Part shown: positions 15,925 through 41,425 of the stretch, piece by piece
Layout: each line of letters starts with the position of its first letter
How positions within the stretch are numbered: position 1 is the stretch's first letter
Source: a virus
Length of the DNA stretch: 41,425 nt
IMG/VR virus record: IMGVR_UViG_3300046010_006221
Span: 1 to 41,425 of that record
Strand: one strand, 5' to 3'
Made by a program: the position numbers and the translations under genes
Notes under the pieces: generated by a model
What the model was told of the DNA's origin: nothing
What the model saw: the letters and a program-made list of their open reading frames with translations, nothing else
The model's database searches: none

Positions 15925-16313
15925 TCGACCCTCGTGTCATTGCGATTCTTGTCGCGGCTGTCTTCGCTGCTGGCTCGTGGCTCGGCTTCAGGATGGGAAA
16001 GGCCGATGGCGACCGCGAGGTGCGGCGGATGTACGAAGCCGCCGCGAAGGTAGTCCGCAAGAGGGAGTCCGATGGAGCGACCGAACAAAGCCGCCTTCTG
16101 GAGCGCATCGCTGACCTTGAGCGTCGCCCTGTGCGCCGGGTGTACGCCTGTCCCGATCCAGTGCCCGGAGCCGCCCCCGTATCTGATTCGGCCAGTGGAC
16201 CCGAAGGAGCTGGCGGAACTCGACTCGATCTTACGCCCGCCCTCCTCAACTGCGAGCGGCGACTCCTCCAGCTCGACGCCCTGACGAGGTGGCACGATGC
16301 GGCGCAGGACTGA
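15921..16313 (+). CDS. Rz: Rz-like inner-membrane spanin (i-spanin)
   Basis: A 130-aa protein from ATG 15921, overlapping the holin stop by four bases. An N-terminal membrane anchor (VIAILVAAVFAAGSWLGF, about residues 6-23) is followed by a long charged periplasmic helix (REVRRMYEAAAKVVRKRESD, SRLLERIADLERR). This is the i-spanin plan. A second gene, Rz1, is nested in the +1 frame at 16072-16284, the classic arrangement of lambda-type spanin pairs. Together they would fuse inner and outer membranes at the last step of lysis. Confidence 0.8.
   Translation: MIDPRVIAILVAAVFAAGSWLGFRMGKADGDREVRRMYEAAAKVVRKRESDGATEQSRLLERIADLERRPVRRVYACPDPVPGAAPVSDSASGPEGAGGTRLDLTPALLNCERRLLQLDALTRWHDAAQD
16072..16284 (+). 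CDS. Rz1: Rz1-like outer-membrane lipoprotein spanin, nested in Rz
   Basis: A 70-aa protein wholly inside the Rz gene in the +1 frame. Its signal peptide AAFWSASLTLSVALCAGC ends in a lipobox-like A-G-C, with Cys rather than the usual Leu at -3. The mature part is short and Pro-rich (TPVPIQCPEPPPY), as in Rz1 proteins. It should be lipidated and held in the outer membrane, pairing with Rz across the periplasm. The unusual -3 residue lowers confidence slightly; the nested location strongly supports it. Confidence 0.75.
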   Translation: MERPNKAAFWSASLTLSVALCAGCTPVPIQCPEPPPYLIRPVDPKELAELDSILRPPSSTASGDSSSSTP

Positions 16314-17995: not shown

Positions 17996-18194
17996 GTTGA
18001 CCTCCGAAGTCGAGAGAGGGCCATGGGGCGGGCTGTTCCGCGTAGCTTACCCATGGGCGGCCGTCCGGGTCGACGGTAATCGTGACGTCCGACCGCGGCG
18101 GCGTCTGGGCCTGCGCCTCGCACGAGCGTAAGCCCAGCCACCAGACGCCGACGCAGACGGCCGCCACCAGCAGGGCCGGGTCGGGGCGCTTCAC
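17937..18194 (-). CDS. Small membrane-anchored early protein, GTG start
   Basis: An 85-aa protein from GTG 18194 with GGAGGG just upstream. Residues 6-21 (ALLVAAVCVGVWWLGL) form a transmembrane or signal-anchor segment, followed by SCEAQAQ. The middle (VTITVDPDGRPWVSYAEQPA) is probably periplasmic, and the tail is strongly acidic and Arg-rich (REREEDRRDDDRDSGDDDE). The start overlaps the HTH gene stop (GTGA). Unknown family; possible partner of the exported protein downstream. Confidence 0.55.
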   Translation of the reverse strand: MKRPDPALLVAAVCVGVWWLGLRSCEAQAQTPPRSDVTITVDPDGRPWVSYAEQPAPWPSLDFGGQREREEDRRDDDRDSGDDDE

Positions 18195-18406
18195 AGTCCC
18201 TCCCCCTTGATCCGCCGGGCCAGCAGGACAGCAATCTCCGGGGCCCGGCGGAAGTTGGCCGCGTCCGGGCTCTTCAGCCACGAGCGCAGGGTGTGGATGG
18301 AGACGCCGAGAGCATCGGCGAGCGCCTGCCGGGTCCACCCCAGCTCATGCGCGATGCGCCGGATCTCCGCGTTCGCGGGCGGCGTTCGCGTGCGCTTCTG
18401 CTTCAT
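18191..18406 (-). CDS. Small helix-turn-helix DNA-binding regulator
   Basis: A 71-aa basic protein. Residues about 15-47 hold a compact HTH: RIAHELGWTRQALADALGVS, then IHTLRSWLKSP. The pattern LGWTRQALADALGVSxxTLxxW is the Cro/C1-like or XRE-like recognition unit. ATG 18406 follows AAGGAAG. It is the only obvious transcription regulator in the leftward early operon, so it is the leading candidate to act on the GTACCC-containing early promoters. That target is inference. Confidence 0.75.
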   Translation of the reverse strand: MKQKRTRTPPANAEIRRIAHELGWTRQALADALGVSIHTLRSWLKSPDAANFRRAPEIAVLLARRIKGEGL

Positions 18407-18638: not shown

Positions 18639-18877
18639 GCCCGACCCTCCGCCTTGGCGATGGCCTCTTCCGCGACCGCGACCGCGACCGGCGTGCGGCC
18701 GTCCAACGGACGCGGGTAGGCGTGGACGATGTACCGCAGTGCCGCCAGCAGCTCGGGAGCGGCGGCCAGCAGCGGCCCCCACTCGTCGGCTCGCGCCGAG
18801 TCGGTGAAGGTCGCCACCCGGGCACGATCCGGGGCGGGGCCGTTGATCCCGCGGCCGTCATAGCTGAGGGACGCCAT
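18635..18877 (-). CDS. Hypothetical early protein
   Basis: An 80-aa protein. GTG 18880 and ATG 18877 are both in frame after GGAGGTGCT; ATG gives the better ribosome-site spacing, and the upstream stop overlaps it (TGATG). Residues about 34-52 (LLAAAPELLAALRYIVHAYP) resemble the LLxAAPELLEAL block of many short phage proteins. The C-terminus is helical (VAEEAIAKAEGRA). Function unknown. Confidence 0.6.
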   Translation of the reverse strand: MASLSYDGRGINGPAPDRARVATFTDSARADEWGPLLAAAPELLAALRYIVHAYPRPLDGRTPVAVAVAEEAIAKAEGRA

Positions 18878-19164
18878 CACAGCACCTCCGTCCGCACGGT
18901 CGAAACCTCGATGCGCTTCGTGTGCGCGGCGATGAGCTGGTGGCTCGGGCCGAGCTTCTCGGCGACGGCCTTCCAGTCAACGACGACGCGCTCGGAGACT
19001 CGCGCCGAGACGCGCCACGAGTTGCCGTCGAAGACGCCCCAGCCCTGCCCGACGATGCGCTCCTTCAGAGCCTCGCGGCGCTCTTCGAGCCGCTTGATCT
19101 GCCGGACCACCTCGCCGTACTCGTCGACCTCGGCGGCCGACAGCCTCTCCAGAACCTCGCTCAT
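18877..19164 (-). CDS. Coiled-coil early protein, first gene after early leftward promoter
   Basis: A 95-aa protein from ATG 19164, preceded by CACAAGGGAGTGAG. Residues 5-40 are a charged coiled coil (AAEVDEYGEVVRQIKRLEER, EALKERIVGQG). The C-terminal half is mixed (WRVSARVSERVVVDWKAVAE). It is the first gene after the leftward promoter at 19199-19234. Family not recognised. Confidence 0.6.
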   Translation of the reverse strand: MSEVLERLSAAEVDEYGEVVRQIKRLEERREALKERIVGQGWGVFDGNSWRVSARVSERVVVDWKAVAEKLGPSHQLIAAHTKRIEVSTVRTEVL

Positions 19165-19181
19165 GACTCACTCCCTTGTGG

Positions 19182-19196
19182 GCCGCACCGTGCGGC
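19182..19196 (-). promoter_or_regulatory. Leader hairpin at predicted 5' end of leftward early mRNA
   Basis: GCCGCA and TGCGGC form a 6-bp perfect stem around CGG, starting at about +1 of the transcript from the 19199-19234 promoter. The ACAAGGGAG ribosome site follows within ten bases. The same order of elements follows three rightward promoters. Confidence 0.6.
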
Positions 19197-19198
19197 AT

Positions 19199-19234
19199 GG
19201 GAGGGAGTATGGGGCTGGGGGTACAGGGTGTCAA
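19199..19234 (-). promoter_or_regulatory. Early leftward promoter with GTACCC box
   Basis: Reading leftward: TTGACA (19234-19229), a 17-base spacer and CATACT (19211-19206). GTACCC occupies 19224-19219, ten bases from the first T of the -35 box, exactly as in the rightward promoters at 21330 and 22842. It begins immediately after the TAG stop of the annealing-protein gene and a run of nine G (C on the plus strand, 19235-19243). It should drive the leftward operon from 19164 to 16724. Confidence 0.65.
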
Positions 19235-19242
19235 CCCCCCCC

Positions 19243-20103
19243 CTACTCCTCGGTCGGGGGCGGGGCTTCCTCGGGCTGGGGCTGCTGCCGCCGGCGGATG
19301 GCCGCGGCGACGGCGGCGGCCTTGGGGGCCGCCTCTGGGGCGGCCTCGGCCTCGAACCAGTCCGCGGGCGCGCTCATGCCGTCCCGGATGCTCTGGTAGA
19401 TCCGGCGGAGGCGGAGGTACTGGGCCGGAGTCATGGACTCGATGTGGCGCTGGATGAGCGCCGAAATCTGCGAAGCGCCGACGCCGATCTCGGCGAACGC
19501 GGCGACCATCTTCGTGACGATCTCCGGGGTGATCTCCACCTTCGTCTTCACGGTCACCTCGCACTGCGCGACCGCAGCCTCGATGACGTCGCCCGGGATG
19601 ACGGCGAGGATGCACGCGCGCAGGCGGCGGGCGCCTTGGTTCGCCACCATCTCGTAGATGTCGCGAGGATCTTCGAGCCGCTTCGTGCCGCTCTTCGTGT
19701 GGCGGACGTGCGTGACTTGAAACACCTTCGAGCTGCGCGTGTTCGTCTCCAGATCCCACGCATATGCCTCGACGGTCGAGACGCCGCTCCGCTGCTCCAG
19801 CTCGCGCACGCCGAACTGGATGTTGCCCCACTCCTGAGCGACCGCCTCAGCAAGGCGGATGCTCGCGCCGGAGACGTCCTGCCCGCCGCGTGCGTACTGG
19901 TACACCGCGCTCTCAGCGAGCGTCATGCGAGAGCACGCATTGAGGATGCGATCCATCGCGCGGCGCTGGTCACGCGGGTTGCGCCGGGCCATGACCATCG
20001 CGGCCTGCACCTCGGCGATCTCACGTTGCGCCCCCTGTTCGACGAGCGCGTCGCGCTCCGGGGCTGCGGTGAATGGGTTCTCTGCGCGAACGACTTCGTT
20101 CAT
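19243..20103 (-). CDS. Putative single-strand annealing / recombination protein
   Basis: A 286-aa protein from ATG 20103 with GAGGA upstream. It matches a widespread phage family by blocks AEVQAAMVMARRNPRD, VSGASIRLAEAVAQEWGN, AWDLETNTR, RDIYEMVANQGARRLRACIL and IPGDVIEAAVAQCEVTV. The family commonly sits next to an exonuclease, as here (YqaJ gene upstream, seven bases apart), which suggests a RecT/Bet-like annealing role, but I do not see a canonical RecT, Erf or Rad52 signature. The C-terminal 50 residues are an Ala/Pro/Gln-rich tail. Together the pair could act in recombination-dependent replication or repair. Confidence 0.65.
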   Translation of the reverse strand: MNEVVRAENPFTAAPERDALVEQGAQREIAEVQAAMVMARRNPRDQRRAMDRILNACSRMTLAESAVYQYARGGQDVSGASIRLAEAVAQEWGNIQFGVRELEQRSGVSTVEAYAWDLETNTRSSKVFQVTHVRHTKSGTKRLEDPRDIYEMVANQGARRLRACILAVIPGDVIEAAVAQCEVTVKTKVEITPEIVTKMVAAFAEIGVGASQISALIQRHIESMTPAQYLRLRRIYQSIRDGMSAPADWFEAEAAPEAAPKAAAVAAAIRRRQQPQPEEAPPPTEE

Positions 20104-20110
20104 GGTGTCC

Positions 20111-21040
20111 TCACTTCAGCCGCAGGACGCGGCTCTCGCTCTCGATGGCGAAGCGGTTGTAGACGTCGGGGGCCTCGGCCTTCAGGCGCGTCTGGTCGAG
20201 GCGTCGCGCCGTCTGGTTCTTCCACGTCACGAGCGGCTCACCGCCCGGCCCGTAGAGAGTCTCAGCCGGGCCCATGAAGAGGCGGACGTCCTTCTGGAGC
20301 CGCTCCTCAACGCTCTCCCAGTGCTTCACCTGAGCCTTCGCTTCGCGGAGCTGTTCGACGGCAGCCGCGGCGGCGGCGTCGGCGTAAGCGATCGCGCCGG
20401 AGTTCGCCTTGCTGTAGCGCTGGTTCACCTCCGCAAGCGTCACCGGCGGCGGCGGCGCGTTGTCGACGACGTACTGCCAGAACTCCAGCTCACCTTCGGT
20501 CACCGCGGTCAGCAGGTTGTCGTCGGCGGGGACGATGTAGAAGCGGAACTCGACGCCAGCGAACAGGACGGGCACGAGCGCAAGCCGGACGCCGGCGCAC
20601 AACATCTCGTGATGAACCTGCACGAGATAGTCCGTCGGTATGTCGGCGCTGCCGTCCTCGCCCCACTTCGCGTCGGAGCGTGCGGTCTTCGCCTGAACGA
20701 CGGCAAGCTGGCCCTCGAACTCCGTCACGCCGTCGAGGGTTGCCCAGCGCGGCAGAACATCGTCCGCCGTAGTCACGACAAGCTGTCGTGCGATGACCGG
20801 GGCGCCGATGCGCTCCTCGGCAAGCTCCAGCACGAACGACTCGATCGCGTTGCCGAAGCGCATGGGGATGGTGGGCTCGACGCGCACCGCGCCCTTCTTC
20901 TCCTCCCAGAGCTGGAGTCGCGTCTTGAACGCGGAGACGCCGCAGGCCGCCGCCGCGTCGCTGGCGCCGAGCCCGGTATGGCGCAGGACGACGTCGCCCT
21001 TCGGCAGGGCGCGCGCCGCGATGGCGGCCGGCAGCGTCAC
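20111..21040 (-). CDS. YqaJ-like viral recombinase exonuclease, GTG start
   Basis: A 309-aa PD-(D/E)xK nuclease of the YqaJ/lambda exonuclease type. LGASDAAAACGVSAFKTRLQ then LWEEKKG (about 24-50) is the family opening, with Ser 27 and Asp 28. RFGNAIE holds Glu 67, WATLDG holds Asp 103, and VVQAKTA holds Lys 118. The usual Glu two residues before that Lys is replaced by Gln 116, so activity should be confirmed. The C-terminus is a long helix. It would resect double-stranded ends for the adjacent annealing protein. GTG 21040 overlaps the upstream stop (GTGA). Confidence 0.85.
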   Translation of the reverse strand: MTLPAAIAARALPKGDVVLRHTGLGASDAAAACGVSAFKTRLQLWEEKKGAVRVEPTIPMRFGNAIESFVLELAEERIGAPVIARQLVVTTADDVLPRWATLDGVTEFEGQLAVVQAKTARSDAKWGEDGSADIPTDYLVQVHHEMLCAGVRLALVPVLFAGVEFRFYIVPADDNLLTAVTEGELEFWQYVVDNAPPPPVTLAEVNQRYSKANSGAIAYADAAAAAAVEQLREAKAQVKHWESVEERLQKDVRLFMGPAETLYGPGGEPLVTWKNQTARRLDQTRLKAEAPDVYNRFAIESESRVLRLK

Positions 21041-21273
21041 AGCAGCGGCTCCTGCTCGGCCGGCTCGCCGGGGCCGATGTTCTCGATCGGCAGTCCGTGC
21101 TGGATGGCGTACAGAAGGTCGGCCTGCGAGGCCGGGCCCGCCTTGAAGCGGTTGGCAACCACCCGCCCGACGGCTTCCCGCTGGGAGCGGGCCACGACGA
21201 ACCGGGGGGCCTCGTCCGGGCTGTCCACCCGGTAGATCCGGGCGCCCTTCGCAATCACACTCTGGGAGGTCAT
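21037..21273 (-). CDS. Hypothetical early protein, first leftward gene
   Basis: A 78-aa protein. ATG 21273 is preferred to an upstream in-frame start that would run through the divergent promoters. Ribosome site is weak (AGGG, eight bases away, within a GGGTAC). The chain holds KGARIYRVDSPDEAPRFVVA, then SQREAVGRVVANRFKAGPAS, then ADLLYAIQHGLPIENI, a small alpha/beta layout. It couples to the exonuclease by GTGA. Family unknown. Confidence 0.6.
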   Translation of the reverse strand: MTSQSVIAKGARIYRVDSPDEAPRFVVARSQREAVGRVVANRFKAGPASQADLLYAIQHGLPIENIGPGEPAEQEPLL

Positions 21274-21282
21274 TTCAAGTAC

Positions 21283-21310
21283 CCTGTATGGGGGGAGGAC
21301 AGAGTGCCAA
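21283..21310 (-). promoter_or_regulatory. Possible leftward promoter for the recombination genes
   Basis: Reading leftward: TTGGCA (21310-21305), a 16-base spacer and TACAGG (21288-21283). A GTACCC/GGGTAC lies at 21279-21284, overlapping the -10 region. The boxes are weak and the leader would be only a few bases. It is proposed because the 78-aa, exonuclease and annealing genes need a leftward promoter and this is the only candidate in the divergent gap. Confidence 0.35.
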
Positions 21311-21329
21311 AAATAGTTGCCGGGGGGTA

Positions 21330-21357
21330 TTGACACAGCGTACCCAGTAGGTAAGAT
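21330..21357 (+). promoter_or_regulatory. Early rightward promoter 1 with GTACCC box
   Basis: TTGACA at 21330-21335, a 16-base spacer and TAAGAT at 21352-21357. The spacer holds GTACCC at 21340-21345. The first 16 bases (TTGACACAGCGTACCC) are identical to those at 22842-22857. It lies between divergent operons and should drive the DUF932 gene at 21405. Confidence 0.75.
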
Positions 21358-21365
21358 GACCCCAT

Positions 21366-21384
21366 GAGCCGAGCGGTTCGGCTC
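21366..21384 (+). promoter_or_regulatory. Leader hairpin ahead of the DUF932 gene
   Basis: GAGCCGA and TCGGCTC form a 7-bp perfect stem around a five-base loop. It starts 36 bases after the first base of the -35 box, so at or next to the predicted transcript start. CCAAGGGA follows directly as ribosome site for 21405. Confidence 0.6.
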
Positions 21385-21404
21385 CAACCAAGGGAACTAC
21401 GAAA

Positions 21405-22409
21405 ATGGCTCACCAGATCGAAAAGCGGAATGGCAAGTACGAGTTCGCCCACGCCGGCGCCCGCGCGTGGCACGGCCTCGGCCAGCAGATCCTCCCGACC
21501 GACGACCTCGACACGATCGTCGCCAAGGGCGGCCTCAACTGGCGCGCCGAGCGGGCCGCCGTCTCCTACCTCGTCACCGTCGACGGCCGCGAGGAGTCGC
21601 GGAGCTTCGAGAACCGCTCCGTCATCTACCGGAGCGACACGGGCGAGGCCCTGAGCGTGCAGAGTGACAGCCGGTACAACATCCACCAGCCGGCCGACAT
21701 CGCCAACTTCTTCCGCGAGTTCCTCGCGGAGCGGAAGGTGACGATCGACACCATCGGCGCGCTCAAGGGCGGGAAGATCGTCTGGGCCCTCGCCAAGCTC
21801 GGCCCGGAGTTCCAGATCAAGGCCCCGGACGGCTCGAAGGTCTTCCCCTACGTCCGCCTCCAGACGTCCTTCGACGGCTCCCGCGCGACCTCGCTGGCCG
21901 CCACGGTGATCCGGCAGGTTTGCGCCAACACCGAGGCCGCCGTCGAGGCCGACACCCGCAGCCGCCAGCGCCGCGTCTCCCACGTCATCCAGTGGAGCGA
22001 CGACGTCGTCGAGGGGCTGAAGGCGGAGTGGGAGCAGCTCGGCGAGAACCTCGCCGCGACCGAGCTGGTCTGGAGCAAGCTGCACAGCCAGAAGCTCCCG
22101 GACGGCAAGGTCAAGGCGGTCTTCGCCTCGCTCCTCGGCATCAACCTCGCCGAGATCGAGAAGACCTCCGCCAAGCAGCGCGGGCAGCTTGAGGCCCTGC
22201 TGTCGGCCTACAAGTCCGCCCCGGGCGCCGTGCCGGGGACCGCGTTCGGCGCTCTTCAGGCGGTGACCTACTACGCCGACCACCAGAGCATCGTCCGCGA
22301 CACCGCGAAGGACGGCAACGACGGCGCCCGCATCGCCTCCGCCCAGTTCGGCACCGGCGCGCAGCTCAAGCTGGCTGCCCGCGAGCGCCTGCTGGAGCTG
22401 GCGGCCTGA
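21405..22409 (+). CDS. DUF932 / TIGR03299 phage-plasmid-like protein
   Basis: A 334-aa protein. HAGARAWHGLGQQI near the N-terminus, SYLVTVDGREE and IYRSDTGEALSVQSD then YNIHQPADIANFF are hallmarks of the DUF932/TIGR03299 family. Later blocks include GGKIVWALAKLG, TSLAATVIRQVCANTEAAV and ALQAVTYYADHQS. The family is widespread in phages and plasmids and often highly expressed early; its biochemical function is unsettled. Length is normal. ATG 21405 follows AAGGGA by nine bases. It is the first gene after early rightward promoter 1. Confidence 0.85.
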   Translation: MAHQIEKRNGKYEFAHAGARAWHGLGQQILPTDDLDTIVAKGGLNWRAERAAVSYLVTVDGREESRSFENRSVIYRSDTGEALSVQSDSRYNIHQPADIANFFREFLAERKVTIDTIGALKGGKIVWALAKLGPEFQIKAPDGSKVFPYVRLQTSFDGSRATSLAATVIRQVCANTEAAVEADTRSRQRRVSHVIQWSDDVVEGLKAEWEQLGENLAATELVWSKLHSQKLPDGKVKAVFASLLGINLAEIEKTSAKQRGQLEALLSAYKSAPGAVPGTAFGALQAVTYYADHQSIVRDTAKDGNDGARIASAQFGTGAQLKLAARERLLELAA

Positions 22410-22421
22410 CCCACCACAACC

Positions 22422-22449
22422 GCCCCGGGGGACTGACCTCCCCCGGGGC
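22422..22449 (+). other. Strong intergenic stem-loop after the DUF932 gene
   Basis: GCCCCGGGGG at 22422-22431 and CCCCCGGGGC at 22440-22449 pair perfectly over 10 bp around an eight-base loop. No T-run follows; instead TCAAGGGAG, the ribosome site of the next gene, begins at once. It may protect the upstream mRNA 3' end, attenuate transcription or set expression of 22465. Confidence 0.65.
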
Positions 22450-22464
22450 TCAAGGGAGAACGTC

Positions 22465-22845
22465 ATGGGAGAGAGAATCCTGTTCCAAGCCGTCGACGAG
22501 GTGAACGGCCGCGTGGGCCCCGTGGTGTACGCGCACTGGGCGGGCGAGGATGGCGACATCATCGCCGCCGCGGTCCTACGGCGCTGCCGCGGGAAGTTCG
22601 ACCCGGAGGGCGCGACGCCGTGGATCGTCTACGAGGCGATCGCTCGGGAGTTCGAGCCAGCGCCGACGAGGGACGATTACGGGAGCGTCTACTGCTACAG
22701 CGCGAGCGAGGCGCTGACCGCCGACGACACGCACGGCGACGGGGGAATCGTCCTCTTCGTCCTGACCCGGGAGGGGCTGCAAGTCCGCGCCTTCGGGGGC
22801 TACTGGGACGTCGGGGCGGAAAACGCGCTCATTCGGAAGGCTTGA
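22465..22845 (+). CDS. Hypothetical early protein
   Basis: A 126-aa acidic protein from ATG 22465, preceded by CAAGGGAG. Beta-like segments (VGPVVYAHWAGEDGD, GGIVLFVLTREGLQVRAFGG) flank a helix (DIIAAAVLRRCRGKF) and an Asp-rich loop (ALTADDTHGDGG). No catalytic motif is recognised. Its stop codon lies inside the next promoter's -35 box. Confidence 0.6.
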   Translation: MGERILFQAVDEVNGRVGPVVYAHWAGEDGDIIAAAVLRRCRGKFDPEGATPWIVYEAIAREFEPAPTRDDYGSVYCYSASEALTADDTHGDGGIVLFVLTREGLQVRAFGGYWDVGAENALIRKA

Positions 22846-22871
22846 CACAGCGTACCCCGCCGCGCTATGGT
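22842..22871 (+). promoter_or_regulatory. Early rightward promoter 2 with GTACCC box
   Basis: TTGACA at 22842-22847, an 18-base spacer and TATGGT at 22866-22871. GTACCC is at 22852-22857. The first 16 bases equal those of promoter 1. The -35 box overlaps the stop of the preceding gene. Confidence 0.7.
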
Positions 22872-22879
22872 TCGATCCA

Positions 22880-22902
22880 TGGCCGGCGGGTGTCGCCAGC
22901 CA
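22880..22902 (+). promoter_or_regulatory. Leader hairpin ahead of 22919
   Basis: TGGC pairs with GCCA, and GGCG with CGCC, with one C-A mismatch between and a five-base loop. It starts 38 bases after the first base of the -35 box. CACAAGGGAG then leads to ATG 22919. Confidence 0.5.
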
Positions 22903-22918
22903 CACAAGGGAGACTGCC

Positions 22919-23374
22919 ATGAACCACCTGCCCAAGCTGACCTTCATCGCCCTCGGGCCCGAAGTCGAGCCCAGAGTGACGGCCATCGCGCCGCACTCGT
23001 GGGACCACTACCTCGAAGCCACCGCGCTCGGCAACCAGCGCCAGAGCCCGAAGTTCCGCGACCACGTCCTCGCCGAGGTCTTCGGCAAGGGCATCACGAC
23101 GATCATCCCGGCGTGGGTCGACGCGGCCCTGACCGACATCGTCGAGGGCTACGCGGGCCCGCACGCCGACCGCGTCAAGCAGCTCGCCGCCGTCATCCTG
23201 CTGCGCGAGTCCTTCGAGCGCCCCACCACCGAAGCAACGAAGCCGGCTGATAAGCCGCGCGGCGTGACCCGGGGCGGCAAGCGCGTCGCCATCGTTCCTC
23301 CGCCGTCGTCGCCGCCGGGCTCGCTCGGCGCGCTGTTCGACGAAGAGGAAGCCAAGCTCACGGGGGCGGCATAA
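22919..23374 (+). CDS. Hypothetical early protein
   Basis: A 151-aa protein, first after promoter 2, with ACAAGGGAG ribosome site. The N-terminal 100 residues look folded (TAIAPHSWDHYLEATALGNQ, PKFRDHVLAEVFGKGITTII, then ALTDIVEGYAG). The last 50 are basic then Pro/Ser-rich (RGVTRGGKRVAIVPPPSSPP) with an acidic end, likely disordered. No family recognised. Confidence 0.6.
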   Translation: MNHLPKLTFIALGPEVEPRVTAIAPHSWDHYLEATALGNQRQSPKFRDHVLAEVFGKGITTIIPAWVDAALTDIVEGYAGPHADRVKQLAAVILLRESFERPTTEATKPADKPRGVTRGGKRVAIVPPPSSPPGSLGALFDEEEAKLTGAA

Positions 23375-23383
23375 CGCCGCCCC
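23363..23383 (+). other. Stem-loop over the stop codon of 22919-23374
   Basis: GGGGCGGC at 23363-23370 and GCCGCCCC at 23376-23383 form an 8-bp perfect stem; the loop ATAAC carries most of the TAA stop. The ribosome site CAAGGGAG of the next gene follows seven bases later. Same hairpin-then-AAGGGAG order as at 22422-22464. No T-run. Confidence 0.6.
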
Positions 23384-23401
23384 TCACCAAGGGAGAAGAC
23401 C

Positions 23402-23656
23402 ATGACCACCGACAACATCGTCCGCGACGCTCGCGCCTACGTCCGCGCCATCACCGACGACGACCAGAACGAGAGCGACCTCTACCGCGCCGGCCACGAG
23501 AAGTATGGGGCCGTCGTCTGGTACAGCGTCGTCCGCAGCGAGATCGACCTCGCCGCCATCCTCGACATCCTCAAGGACTTCAGCGGCCTTCCAGAGAACG
23601 TCGTCCTCGACGAGCTGCGGCGCACGCTGGCCCGCTTCGTGGAGGATTCCCAGTGA
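23402..23656 (+). CDS. Hypothetical early protein
   Basis: An 84-aa acidic helical protein from ATG 23402 with CCAAGGGAG upstream. It holds VVWYSVVRSEIDLAAILDIL and LPENVVLDELRRTLARFVE. Coupled to the next gene by GTGA. Family unknown. Confidence 0.6.
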   Translation: MTTDNIVRDARAYVRAITDDDQNESDLYRAGHEKYGAVVWYSVVRSEIDLAAILDILKDFSGLPENVVLDELRRTLARFVEDSQ

Positions 23657-40578: not shown

Positions 40579-41235
40579 ATGCCGGCGAACCTCACCGAAC
40601 TCAAGGCCGACGTCGCGGGCTGGCTGAATCGCGACGACATCGACGACGCGGACCTCGGCAAGTTCGTCCGCCTCGGCGAGCTTCAGCTCGATCTCTTCCT
40701 GCGCTGCCGCTACACCTCGAAGACGACGCGCTTCTTCGTCTCGAACGGCCTCATCACGATCCCCGATGACTACACGGAGCTTCGGATCGTGCAGCCCGTC
40801 GGGACGTGGGACGGCGCCGACGAGGGGACGCTCGTGGCGAGTCCGCAGCCGCCCATGACGCCGGTGTCCTTCCAGTCGCTCGCGGCTTACCAGAGCGGCT
40901 CGTATCCGGGCTACCCCGCCAACTACGCGGAGACGCCGGACGGCGTGAGCTGGGCCATCTACCCCGCCGGCCTCTGGGCCATCGACGTGAGCTACTACCA
41001 CAAGCTCCCGCCGCTCTCCGACGACAACGCGGCGACGGTGCGGCTCTTTCAAGCCTTCCCGGACGTGTACCTCTCGGCGGCGATGGTGGAGGCGGAGAAT
41101 TGGCTCAAGGTGAAGGAGCCTGACCGCGGCCCGTGGCGCGGCAAGCTCGACGCCTACATCACTTCCCTCAACGGCAACAGCCGGCGCAGCGAAGTCTCGG
41201 GCGGGACGCTCGTGACGCGCTCGCCATACAGGTGA
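40579..41235 (+). CDS. Head-tail connector (SU10 adaptor-like), complete copy
   Basis: A 218-aa protein from ATG 40579. NLTELKADVAGWLNRDDIDD, then LGKFVRLGELQLDLFLRCRY is the helical opening of SU10-type adaptors. RFFVSNGLITIPDDYTELRI is the central strand block. YYHKLPPLSDDN, then LFQAFPDVYLSAAMVEAENW gives the C-terminal helices. The pairing with an SU10/DUF5309 capsid supports the call. It would ring the portal and hold the tail nozzle. Its C-terminal 94 codons are repeated at window positions 2-286 by genome wrap-around. Confidence 0.8.
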   Translation: MPANLTELKADVAGWLNRDDIDDADLGKFVRLGELQLDLFLRCRYTSKTTRFFVSNGLITIPDDYTELRIVQPVGTWDGADEGTLVASPQPPMTPVSFQSLAAYQSGSYPGYPANYAETPDGVSWAIYPAGLWAIDVSYYHKLPPLSDDNAATVRLFQAFPDVYLSAAMVEAENWLKVKEPDRGPWRGKLDAYITSLNGNSRRSEVSGGTLVTRSPYR

Positions 41236-41425
41236 CGTCATGCCGATCGGCTCACTCAACACCGCTACGCCGGGGTCCGGCGAAGTAGCGGGCACGTCTG
41301 GCCCTTCCGAGCTGAAGGGGATCAAGACCGAGATCCGCGCGAGTTTCCCGAACTTCACGGCAGGCAACGACGTCGTTACGAAGACCGCGTCCCAGCTCAA
41401 CGACGCCCCCCAGAAGGGCGCTTCC
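40950..41425. repeat. Right copy of imperfect terminal redundancy (476 bp)
   Basis: Direct repeat of 1-476 with the ten third-position differences listed there. The differences cluster at window positions 41049-41299; the outer 99 bases on the left and 126 on the right match perfectly. Unique genome length is therefore 40,949 bp. Confidence 0.9.
41240..41425 (+). CDS. Tail fibre gene, N-terminal part cut by window edge
   Basis: The first 62 codons of the fibre gene complete at 291-1493. The protein is identical over this part despite six base changes. Starts at ATG 41240, five bases after the connector stop, and runs off the window. Confidence 0.85.
   Translation, partial: MPIGSLNTATPGSGEVAGTSGPSELKGIKTEIRASFPNFTAGNDVVTKTASQLNDAPQKGAS

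Follow-up and report, generated by a model that had tools for sequence, protein, structure and literature searches.

The window analysed here is the whole of the IMG/VR virus record IMGVR_UViG_3300046010_006221 (41,425 nucleotides, nt), in which three promoters, designated A, B and C, each carry the hexamer GTACCC and are each followed by a hairpin near the predicted 5' end of the RNA, the Shine-Dalgarno (SD) sequence AAGGGA and an ATG codon (Table 1). The preliminary description had placed three such promoters in this region, and TTGACAC-N3-GTACCC indeed occurs in the window exactly three times (19234-19219 on the minus strand, 21330-21345 and 22842-22857 on the plus strand) and in none of 100 dinucleotide shuffles of it. 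A, B and C are also the only sigma70-like promoters between 16 and 26 kb, where 0.3 would be expected. The region is regarded as early on account of the recombination genes that surround it.

The -35 and -10 boxes are separated by 17, 16 and 18 bases in A, B and C, respectively. Counted from the first T of the -35 box, the hairpin starts after 36 bases at B and after 38 bases at A and C, as proposed, with 9 (A), 8 (B) and 8 (C) unpaired bases between it and the -10 box, so that it begins on the predicted first base of the message or no more than about three bases from it. The proposed order of -35, GTACCC, -10, hairpin, ribosome site and ATG on both strands was likewise found at all three sites. 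Two further hairpins (22422 and 23362) are intercistronic and have no promoter, and all five hairpins of the window end 2-5 nt before AAGGGA. Given these two copies, the unit of hairpin and SD belongs to gene starts and not solely to GTACCC promoters. Hence, the hairpin as a part of the GTACCC promoter element holds for A, B and C but not as its sole setting, the intercistronic copies having been missed earlier.

Table 1. Features of the early block of the window.
Feature	Position	Strand	Details
Promoter A	19206..19234	-	-35 TTGACA 19234-19229; GTACCC 19224-19219; -10 CATACT 19211-19206
Promoter B	21330..21357	+	-35 TTGACA 21330-21335; GTACCC 21340-21345; -10 TAAGAT 21352-21357
Promoter C	22842..22871	+	-35 TTGACA 22842-22847; GTACCC 22852-22857; -10 TATGGT 22866-22871
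Fourth GTACCC	21279..21284	+	Shortly before the start (21273) of the divergent operon on the recE side; kept in G001
5' hairpin A	19182..19196	-	GCCGCAcggTGCGGC
5' hairpin B	21366..21384	+	GAGCCGAgcggtTCGGCTC
5' hairpin C	22880..22902	+	TGGC-c-GGCGggtgtCGCC-a-GCCA (TGGC-c-GGCG-ggtgt-CGCC-a-GCCA)
Intercistronic hairpin	22422..22449	+	GCCCCGGGGGactgacCTCCCCCGGGGC; 2 nt before AAGGGAG of gene 22465; z -2.8
Intercistronic hairpin	23362..23384	+	GGGGGCGGCataacGCCGCCCCT; before AAGGGAG of gene 23402-23656; z -3.7
SD AAGGGA of gene 18877-19164	19172..19177	-	
SD AAGGGA of DUF932 gene	21390..21395	+	
SD AAGGGA of gene 22919-23374	22906..22911	+	
95-amino-acid (aa) gene behind promoter A	18877..19164	-	Relative in phage locus L146
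DUF932/TIGR03299 phage/plasmid-like protein behind promoter B, 334 aa	21405..22409	+	PF06067 1.5e-34; TIGR03299 2.3e-61
126-aa gene	22465..22845	+	Relatives downstream of DUF932 in L155/L307 and L231
151-aa gene behind promoter C	22919..23374	+	
Gene preceded by intercistronic hairpin and AAGGGAG	23402-23656	+	
71-aa helix-turn-helix (HTH) protein	18191..18406	-	Candidate regulator proposed earlier; weak HTH_23/HTH_3 matches

The sole relative with GTACCC promoters, IMGVR_UViG_3300037311_000013 (G001, ~91% nucleotide identity), keeps all five hairpins and all three TTGACAC-N3-GTACCC sites. Its elements differ from those of the window at 5 of 200 positions (2.5%), against a regional divergence of 7.2%. 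Two of the five differences lie on both sides of one base pair of hairpin B, where G-C is replaced by C-G (CAGCCGA..TCGGCTG in G001), and thus constitute a compensatory change; the remaining three affect one loop base, one N3 base and one -10 base. Hairpin A and the intercistronic hairpin at 22422-22449 are identical in G001, as is that of gene 23402 over 23363-23385, and hairpin C differs in a loop base alone. Promoter A of G001 retains the -35 box and GTACCC, with CAGACT as the -10 box and a spacer that is one base longer. A leaderless upstream open reading frame (ORF), considered from the presence of CCATG at about +1 in all three leaders, was rejected, as G001 has CCATC at B and the ORF is not conserved there.

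The same gene, DUF932, also has a leader hairpin in phages that share no more than ~30-35% identity with the window in the DUF932 protein, with a different stem sequence and a locked position. A first set of 80 IMG/VR loci was fetched with a ten-sequence DUF932 alignment. A hairpin precedes the start in 62% of 68 non-redundant DUF932 leaders (window left out), as compared with 20% in shuffles, 38% for other genes of the same loci and 26% in a shifted region, and the folding energy of the leaders is lower than that of the other genes (p 0.006) and the shifted region (p 7e-6). TATAAT-like boxes cluster 5-9 nt upstream of the leader hairpin (15 cases, peak at 6). A second set, obtained by scanning for a DUF932 clade at roughly 70-77% aa identity, yielded 67 distinct leaders, 64 of them with a recognisable -10 box. 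The first paired base lies 6-7 nt behind that box in 41 of the 64 and 4-9 nt behind it in 57, counts that are not independent events since the sequences are related. A distance of 6-7 nt corresponds to +1/+2 of a typical promoter.

The stems of the clade span from ACCGG..CCGGT to ATGACCGGGC..GCCCGGTCAT, and wobble pairs and changes of loop length are tolerated. Swapping of the left halves among 36 non-redundant leaders weakened the folding from -11.8 to -7.4 kcal/mol, and none of 500 swaps was as good as the native combination. In two sub-clades that could be aligned, paired cells made up 94% and 96%, and changes on both sides were seen at 3 and 4 pairs, most of these being lost once the helix was slid. 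No consensus structure emerged when 39 leaders were aligned by sequence only, as the stems differ in length and sequence, although alignments of single sub-clades worked. With stems differing so much, pairing must, on the evidence of these comparisons, have been kept or regained repeatedly. Two observations on individual DUF932 leaders are recorded here. In L146, the DUF932 promoter (TTGACACGGGTACAACACCCGTGTTATAAT, 70 bases before 2501, plus strand) is overlapped by a palindrome and has no hairpin at +1. In L174, L168 and L170, a T-run (GGGGTCTTTT) follows the hairpin about 15-40 nt before DUF932 and shortly before the SD, and these hairpins look like a terminator or attenuator.

Across all fetched viral loci, a hairpin of at least 6 base pairs (bp) starts 4-9 nt behind the -10 box of 43 of 152 TTGAC/TGGAC promoters, with 5-10 in windows of equal width elsewhere. 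Among strong promoters, the share with a hairpin of at least 6 bp at +1 was 37% and 49% in two DUF932 sets and 2-4% at other offsets; in the control loci it was 11% for RecT phage, 1/14 for arbitrary viral loci and 0/15 for bacterial loci. Seven DUF932 phage blocks contain 24 full cassettes (-10, hairpin, SD and start), as compared with 1-4 in shifted controls. Each cassette of one phage has a private hairpin, behind which (C/T)AAC(C/T) and an SD of the AGAAAG(G/C) type usually follow. In L157, for instance, three promoters take the form TTGACACGGG-N-CCCGTG-TATAAT with a +1 hairpin at each, and the phage isolate DSL-LC04, accession OR003939, has two cassettes. The DUF932 promoter of this isolate lies at 16135 on the minus strand. 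Small early proteins of one Cys/His-rich family are encoded behind hairpin cassettes in L309 (4062-4757, plus strand) and L310 (3284-3967, minus strand), and the L309 member has no match in the family library.

The cassette also accompanies relatives of other genes of the window. Relatives of gene 22465 (34% identity over 120 aa, 7e-18 pairwise) have the leaders TATAAT-AGTGACA-CTGGTGGCagccGCCACCGG in L155/L307 and TATAAT-AGCGGCA-CTGCTGCGGGggtcCCCGCAGCGG in L231, and the relative in L229 has no evident promoter hairpin. The L146 relative of the 95-aa gene of promoter A (34% aa identity) lies behind TTGACA..TATAAT-ACAGGTA-CTGGATCagtgagacGATCCGG with a +1 hairpin. No relative of the 151-aa gene was found outside G001. 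Three gene families retain the leader, or its hairpin and SD part, across deep divergence while the sequence of the hairpin changes.

The differing stems and loops within a single genome speak against both antitermination and operator functions. As an antitermination element of the put/nut kind, or as a signal for early pausing, the hairpin would act on RNA polymerase from the 5' end of early transcripts, where it lies much as put does in HK022. However, inspection revealed no stem or loop sequence common to the cassettes of one phage, as would be expected of HK022 put or lambda nut, and the messages look short, with an own promoter for each small gene, which makes such a role very unlikely. 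A phage repressor that binds the inverted repeats as DNA operators at +1 would account for palindromes between the -10 box and the SD, which are classic operator positions, and palindromic spacers are present too in several phages (L157, L257). Nevertheless, the palindromes vary from promoter to promoter in one phage, and wobble pairs and altered loop lengths are tolerated, so that we consider operators at +1 extremely unlikely.

The explanation that we favour, and consider probable, is that early phage mRNAs are protected against 5'-end-dependent decay by stem-loops at their 5' termini, much as with the leaders of ompA and T7 gene 10, with GTACCC forming a separate layer. As far as can be judged from predicted promoters, the position of the hairpin is locked to +1, as in known 5'-terminal stem-loop leaders a few nt from the 5' end (57/64 clade leaders; 8-9 nt behind the -10 box in the window). 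Covariation, the half-swap and the compensatory change at B indicate that the structure is kept and the stem sequence is free, and around DUF932 the cassette is repeated, at several early genes in a phage. 5'-end protection is preferred because the locked feature is the distance from the predicted +1 to the first pair, which is where hairpins hinder RppH and RNase E. In bla mRNA, a 5' hairpin confers stability and impedes RppH, and hairpins in this position also hinder 5'-end-dependent RNase E (PMC3997798). The T7 gene 10 stem-loop before the ribosome-binding site raises expression 1.5-3x together with the mRNA level (PMC6146998), and T4 gene 32 mRNA is stabilised by a 5' hairpin (PMC8948821).

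By analogy with these leaders, the RNA from each promoter would fold at its extreme 5' end, with a short unpaired linker, the SD and the start codon following. The sequestered 5' end would hinder removal of pyrophosphate by RppH and 5'-end-dependent entry of RNase E (RNase J in Gram-positives), and early phage mRNAs would live longer through hindered attack on this end. Possibly as a second role, the hairpin would stop upstream RNA from masking the ribosome site, and the hairpins without a promoter would serve both functions for mRNAs cut between genes. Of the operator plus RNA-stabilising leader suggested in the preliminary description, the leader is borne out as a conserved RNA structure by covariation and position lock; stabilisation would follow from the behaviour of known 5' stem-loops, and an operator is plausible, GTACCC being kept at 3/3 sites in G001, but the hexamer is absent from other phages that have such a leader.

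The hairpin could instead act mainly on translation, by insulating the SD from upstream RNA or as a standby or repressor site, with 5'-end protection secondary. The closeness of all five window hairpins to AAGGGA, two of them in the absence of a promoter, would fit such a role, as would the A-rich unpaired linker and SD that follow the hairpin in most clade leaders. Nonetheless, what is locked across phages is where the hairpin begins (6-7 nt after the -10 box), whereas most clade leaders have between about 19 and 29 nt from hairpin to ATG, and insulation needs no placement at +1. A role primarily in translation is therefore considered unlikely.

Several points weigh against 5'-end protection. 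The folding energies of hairpins A, B and C are ordinary for GC-rich composition (z -0.5, -0.9 and +0.4), and a stem of at least 6 bp beginning 5-12 nt behind the -10 box arises in 4-10% of shuffles per site. These values are also what would be seen if the window hairpins were chance products of GC-rich DNA and the promoters alone were real. Chance is contradicted by the compensatory change at hairpin B, the lower divergence of the elements than of the region in G001, and the +1 hairpins that relatives of the genes behind A and B and of gene 22465 carry in other phages, and is the least credible of the explanations weighed here. The case for the hairpins from the window genome alone is moderate, their significance coming from the relatives and not from energy. 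In addition, the window hairpins begin slightly later behind the -10 box (8-9 nt) than those of other phages (6-7 nt), and two of the five have no promoter. DUF932 genes in a small sample of bacterial genomes are mostly without a leader; hence, the leader is not tied to the DUF932 protein itself. Promoters and +1 positions are predictions, and which RNases act depends on the host. Finally, 5'-end protection is not universal, as 5' structure confers no stability on the T7-transcribed lacZ mRNA or on the rpsO mRNA (PMC3997798).

TTGACAC-N3-GTACCC is probably a layer apart from the hairpin, either an asymmetric operator or a duplicated promoter, which would co-regulate the early genes here and in G001. 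The two look like separable layers, because the other cassette-bearing phages have different spacer motifs, some palindromic, and lack GTACCC. The composite element expected in relatives was found in G001 with its spacing, while the other cassette-bearing phages share its hairpin but not GTACCC. Pattern scans gave 21 matches to TTGACACNGCGTACCC in viral contigs and 18 to TTGACACAGCGTACCC in genome contigs, all scattered; as the site never recurs within a fetched stretch except in G001, these were attributed to chance. In the other fetched loci, GTACCC was seen only in stretches retrieved with that very pattern. A palindromic operator around the -35 box (GGGTA-N11-TACCC at B) was rejected on inspection, as the register differs at A and C. 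The stoperators of cluster A (L5) are asymmetric repeated sites overlapping a TTGACA -35 box, with 20-30 sites, also inside genes; GTACCC is likewise repeated and asymmetric, but with three sites, all in promoters. Spacer-filling inverted repeats, which are likely operators, occur in promoters of L157 (3797-4471), L155 (4720) and L257 (2333), all on the plus strand. That of L157, CACGGG-N-CCCGTG, is found three times in -35/-10 spacers, and the palindrome of L257 is ACATGGTCC..GGACCATGT (ACATGGTCCAGCTGGACCATGT).

The gene for the 71-aa HTH protein, which had been put forward as the regulator, lies downstream on the strand that promoter A serves. It is a fair candidate for a regulator acting at GTACCC, no more. 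No relative was found in other DUF932 loci, and a PDB search with the protein returned only 21-residue matches to designed repeat proteins; the DUF932 profile had no match in PDB. Between promoters A and B, a recE-like exonuclease gene (20111-21040) lies within an operon (19243-21273, minus strand), the start of which faces promoter B and carries GTACCC. The gene beside it (19243-20103, minus strand) belongs to PHROG 3657, relatives of which are annotated as single-stranded DNA-binding proteins in two Gordonia phages. The ends of the record (1-476 and 40950-41425) repeat each other, with 99% identity over the 300 nt compared and more exact stretches beyond, and the genome unit is therefore ~40,949 bases and probably complete. 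Matches to portal, coat, scaffold and terminase proteins point to a podovirus, distant kin of the P22 and LUZ24 kinds.

The T7 gene 10 leader is a single leader behind a T7 RNA polymerase promoter; unlike it, the cassettes described here have host-type promoters, several per genome, with a private hairpin each. The two are alike in the succession of phage mRNA stem-loop, unpaired linker, SD and ATG, and transplantation of the T7 leader raises mRNA and expression (PMC6146998). The ompA and papA stem-loops of E. coli similarly lie at or very near the 5' end and slow 5'-end-dependent decay (PMC3997798), but belong to single host genes without a repeated promoter cassette. The T4 gene 32 leader is also a phage 5' hairpin that stabilises its message (PMC8948821); it is of the CUUCGG type, whereas here no loop is fixed and the position of the hairpin is set in relation to the promoter. 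The SAS/ESAS elements of cluster K mycobacteriophages are inverted-repeat elements directly before the SD of many phage genes (PMC3203893). Conservation there extends to a 13-bp sequence of the GGGATAGGAGCCC type at the ribosome site and to repeats of 17 bp, and the authors of that study report little support for an RNA hairpin (PMC3203893). In the phages examined here, in contrast, pairing is kept but not sequence, promoters are attached, the SD is AAGGGA or AGAAAGGATAGA, and stems differ within one genome.

The principle of the 5' stem-loop leader is already known. The systematic use of a promoter-fused hairpin of free sequence, at several early genes in a phage, is absent from Rfam and was not found in open-licence literature, although earlier reports elsewhere are possible. 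Neither the window nor 20 related loci had a match in Rfam (release 15) at the gathering score. Since only geometry is kept and the sequence is free, libraries of RNA families based on sequence miss such leaders. We suggest, tentatively and with less confidence than for 5'-end protection, that this is a widespread uncatalogued phage cassette, in which promoter and 5'-terminal hairpin evolve as a unit and the hairpin may be a structural 'cap' by which early mRNAs are marked as resistant to decay, perhaps with the phage accelerating host mRNA decay at the same time.

Known 5' stem-loops stabilise single messages, whereas their use seems to be systematic in a large set of phages, at several promoters per genome. 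These phages offer a natural collection of stabilising leaders and a handle on the DUF932 early block, and make it possible to test directly whether early expression in phages is limited by 5'-end-dependent decay.

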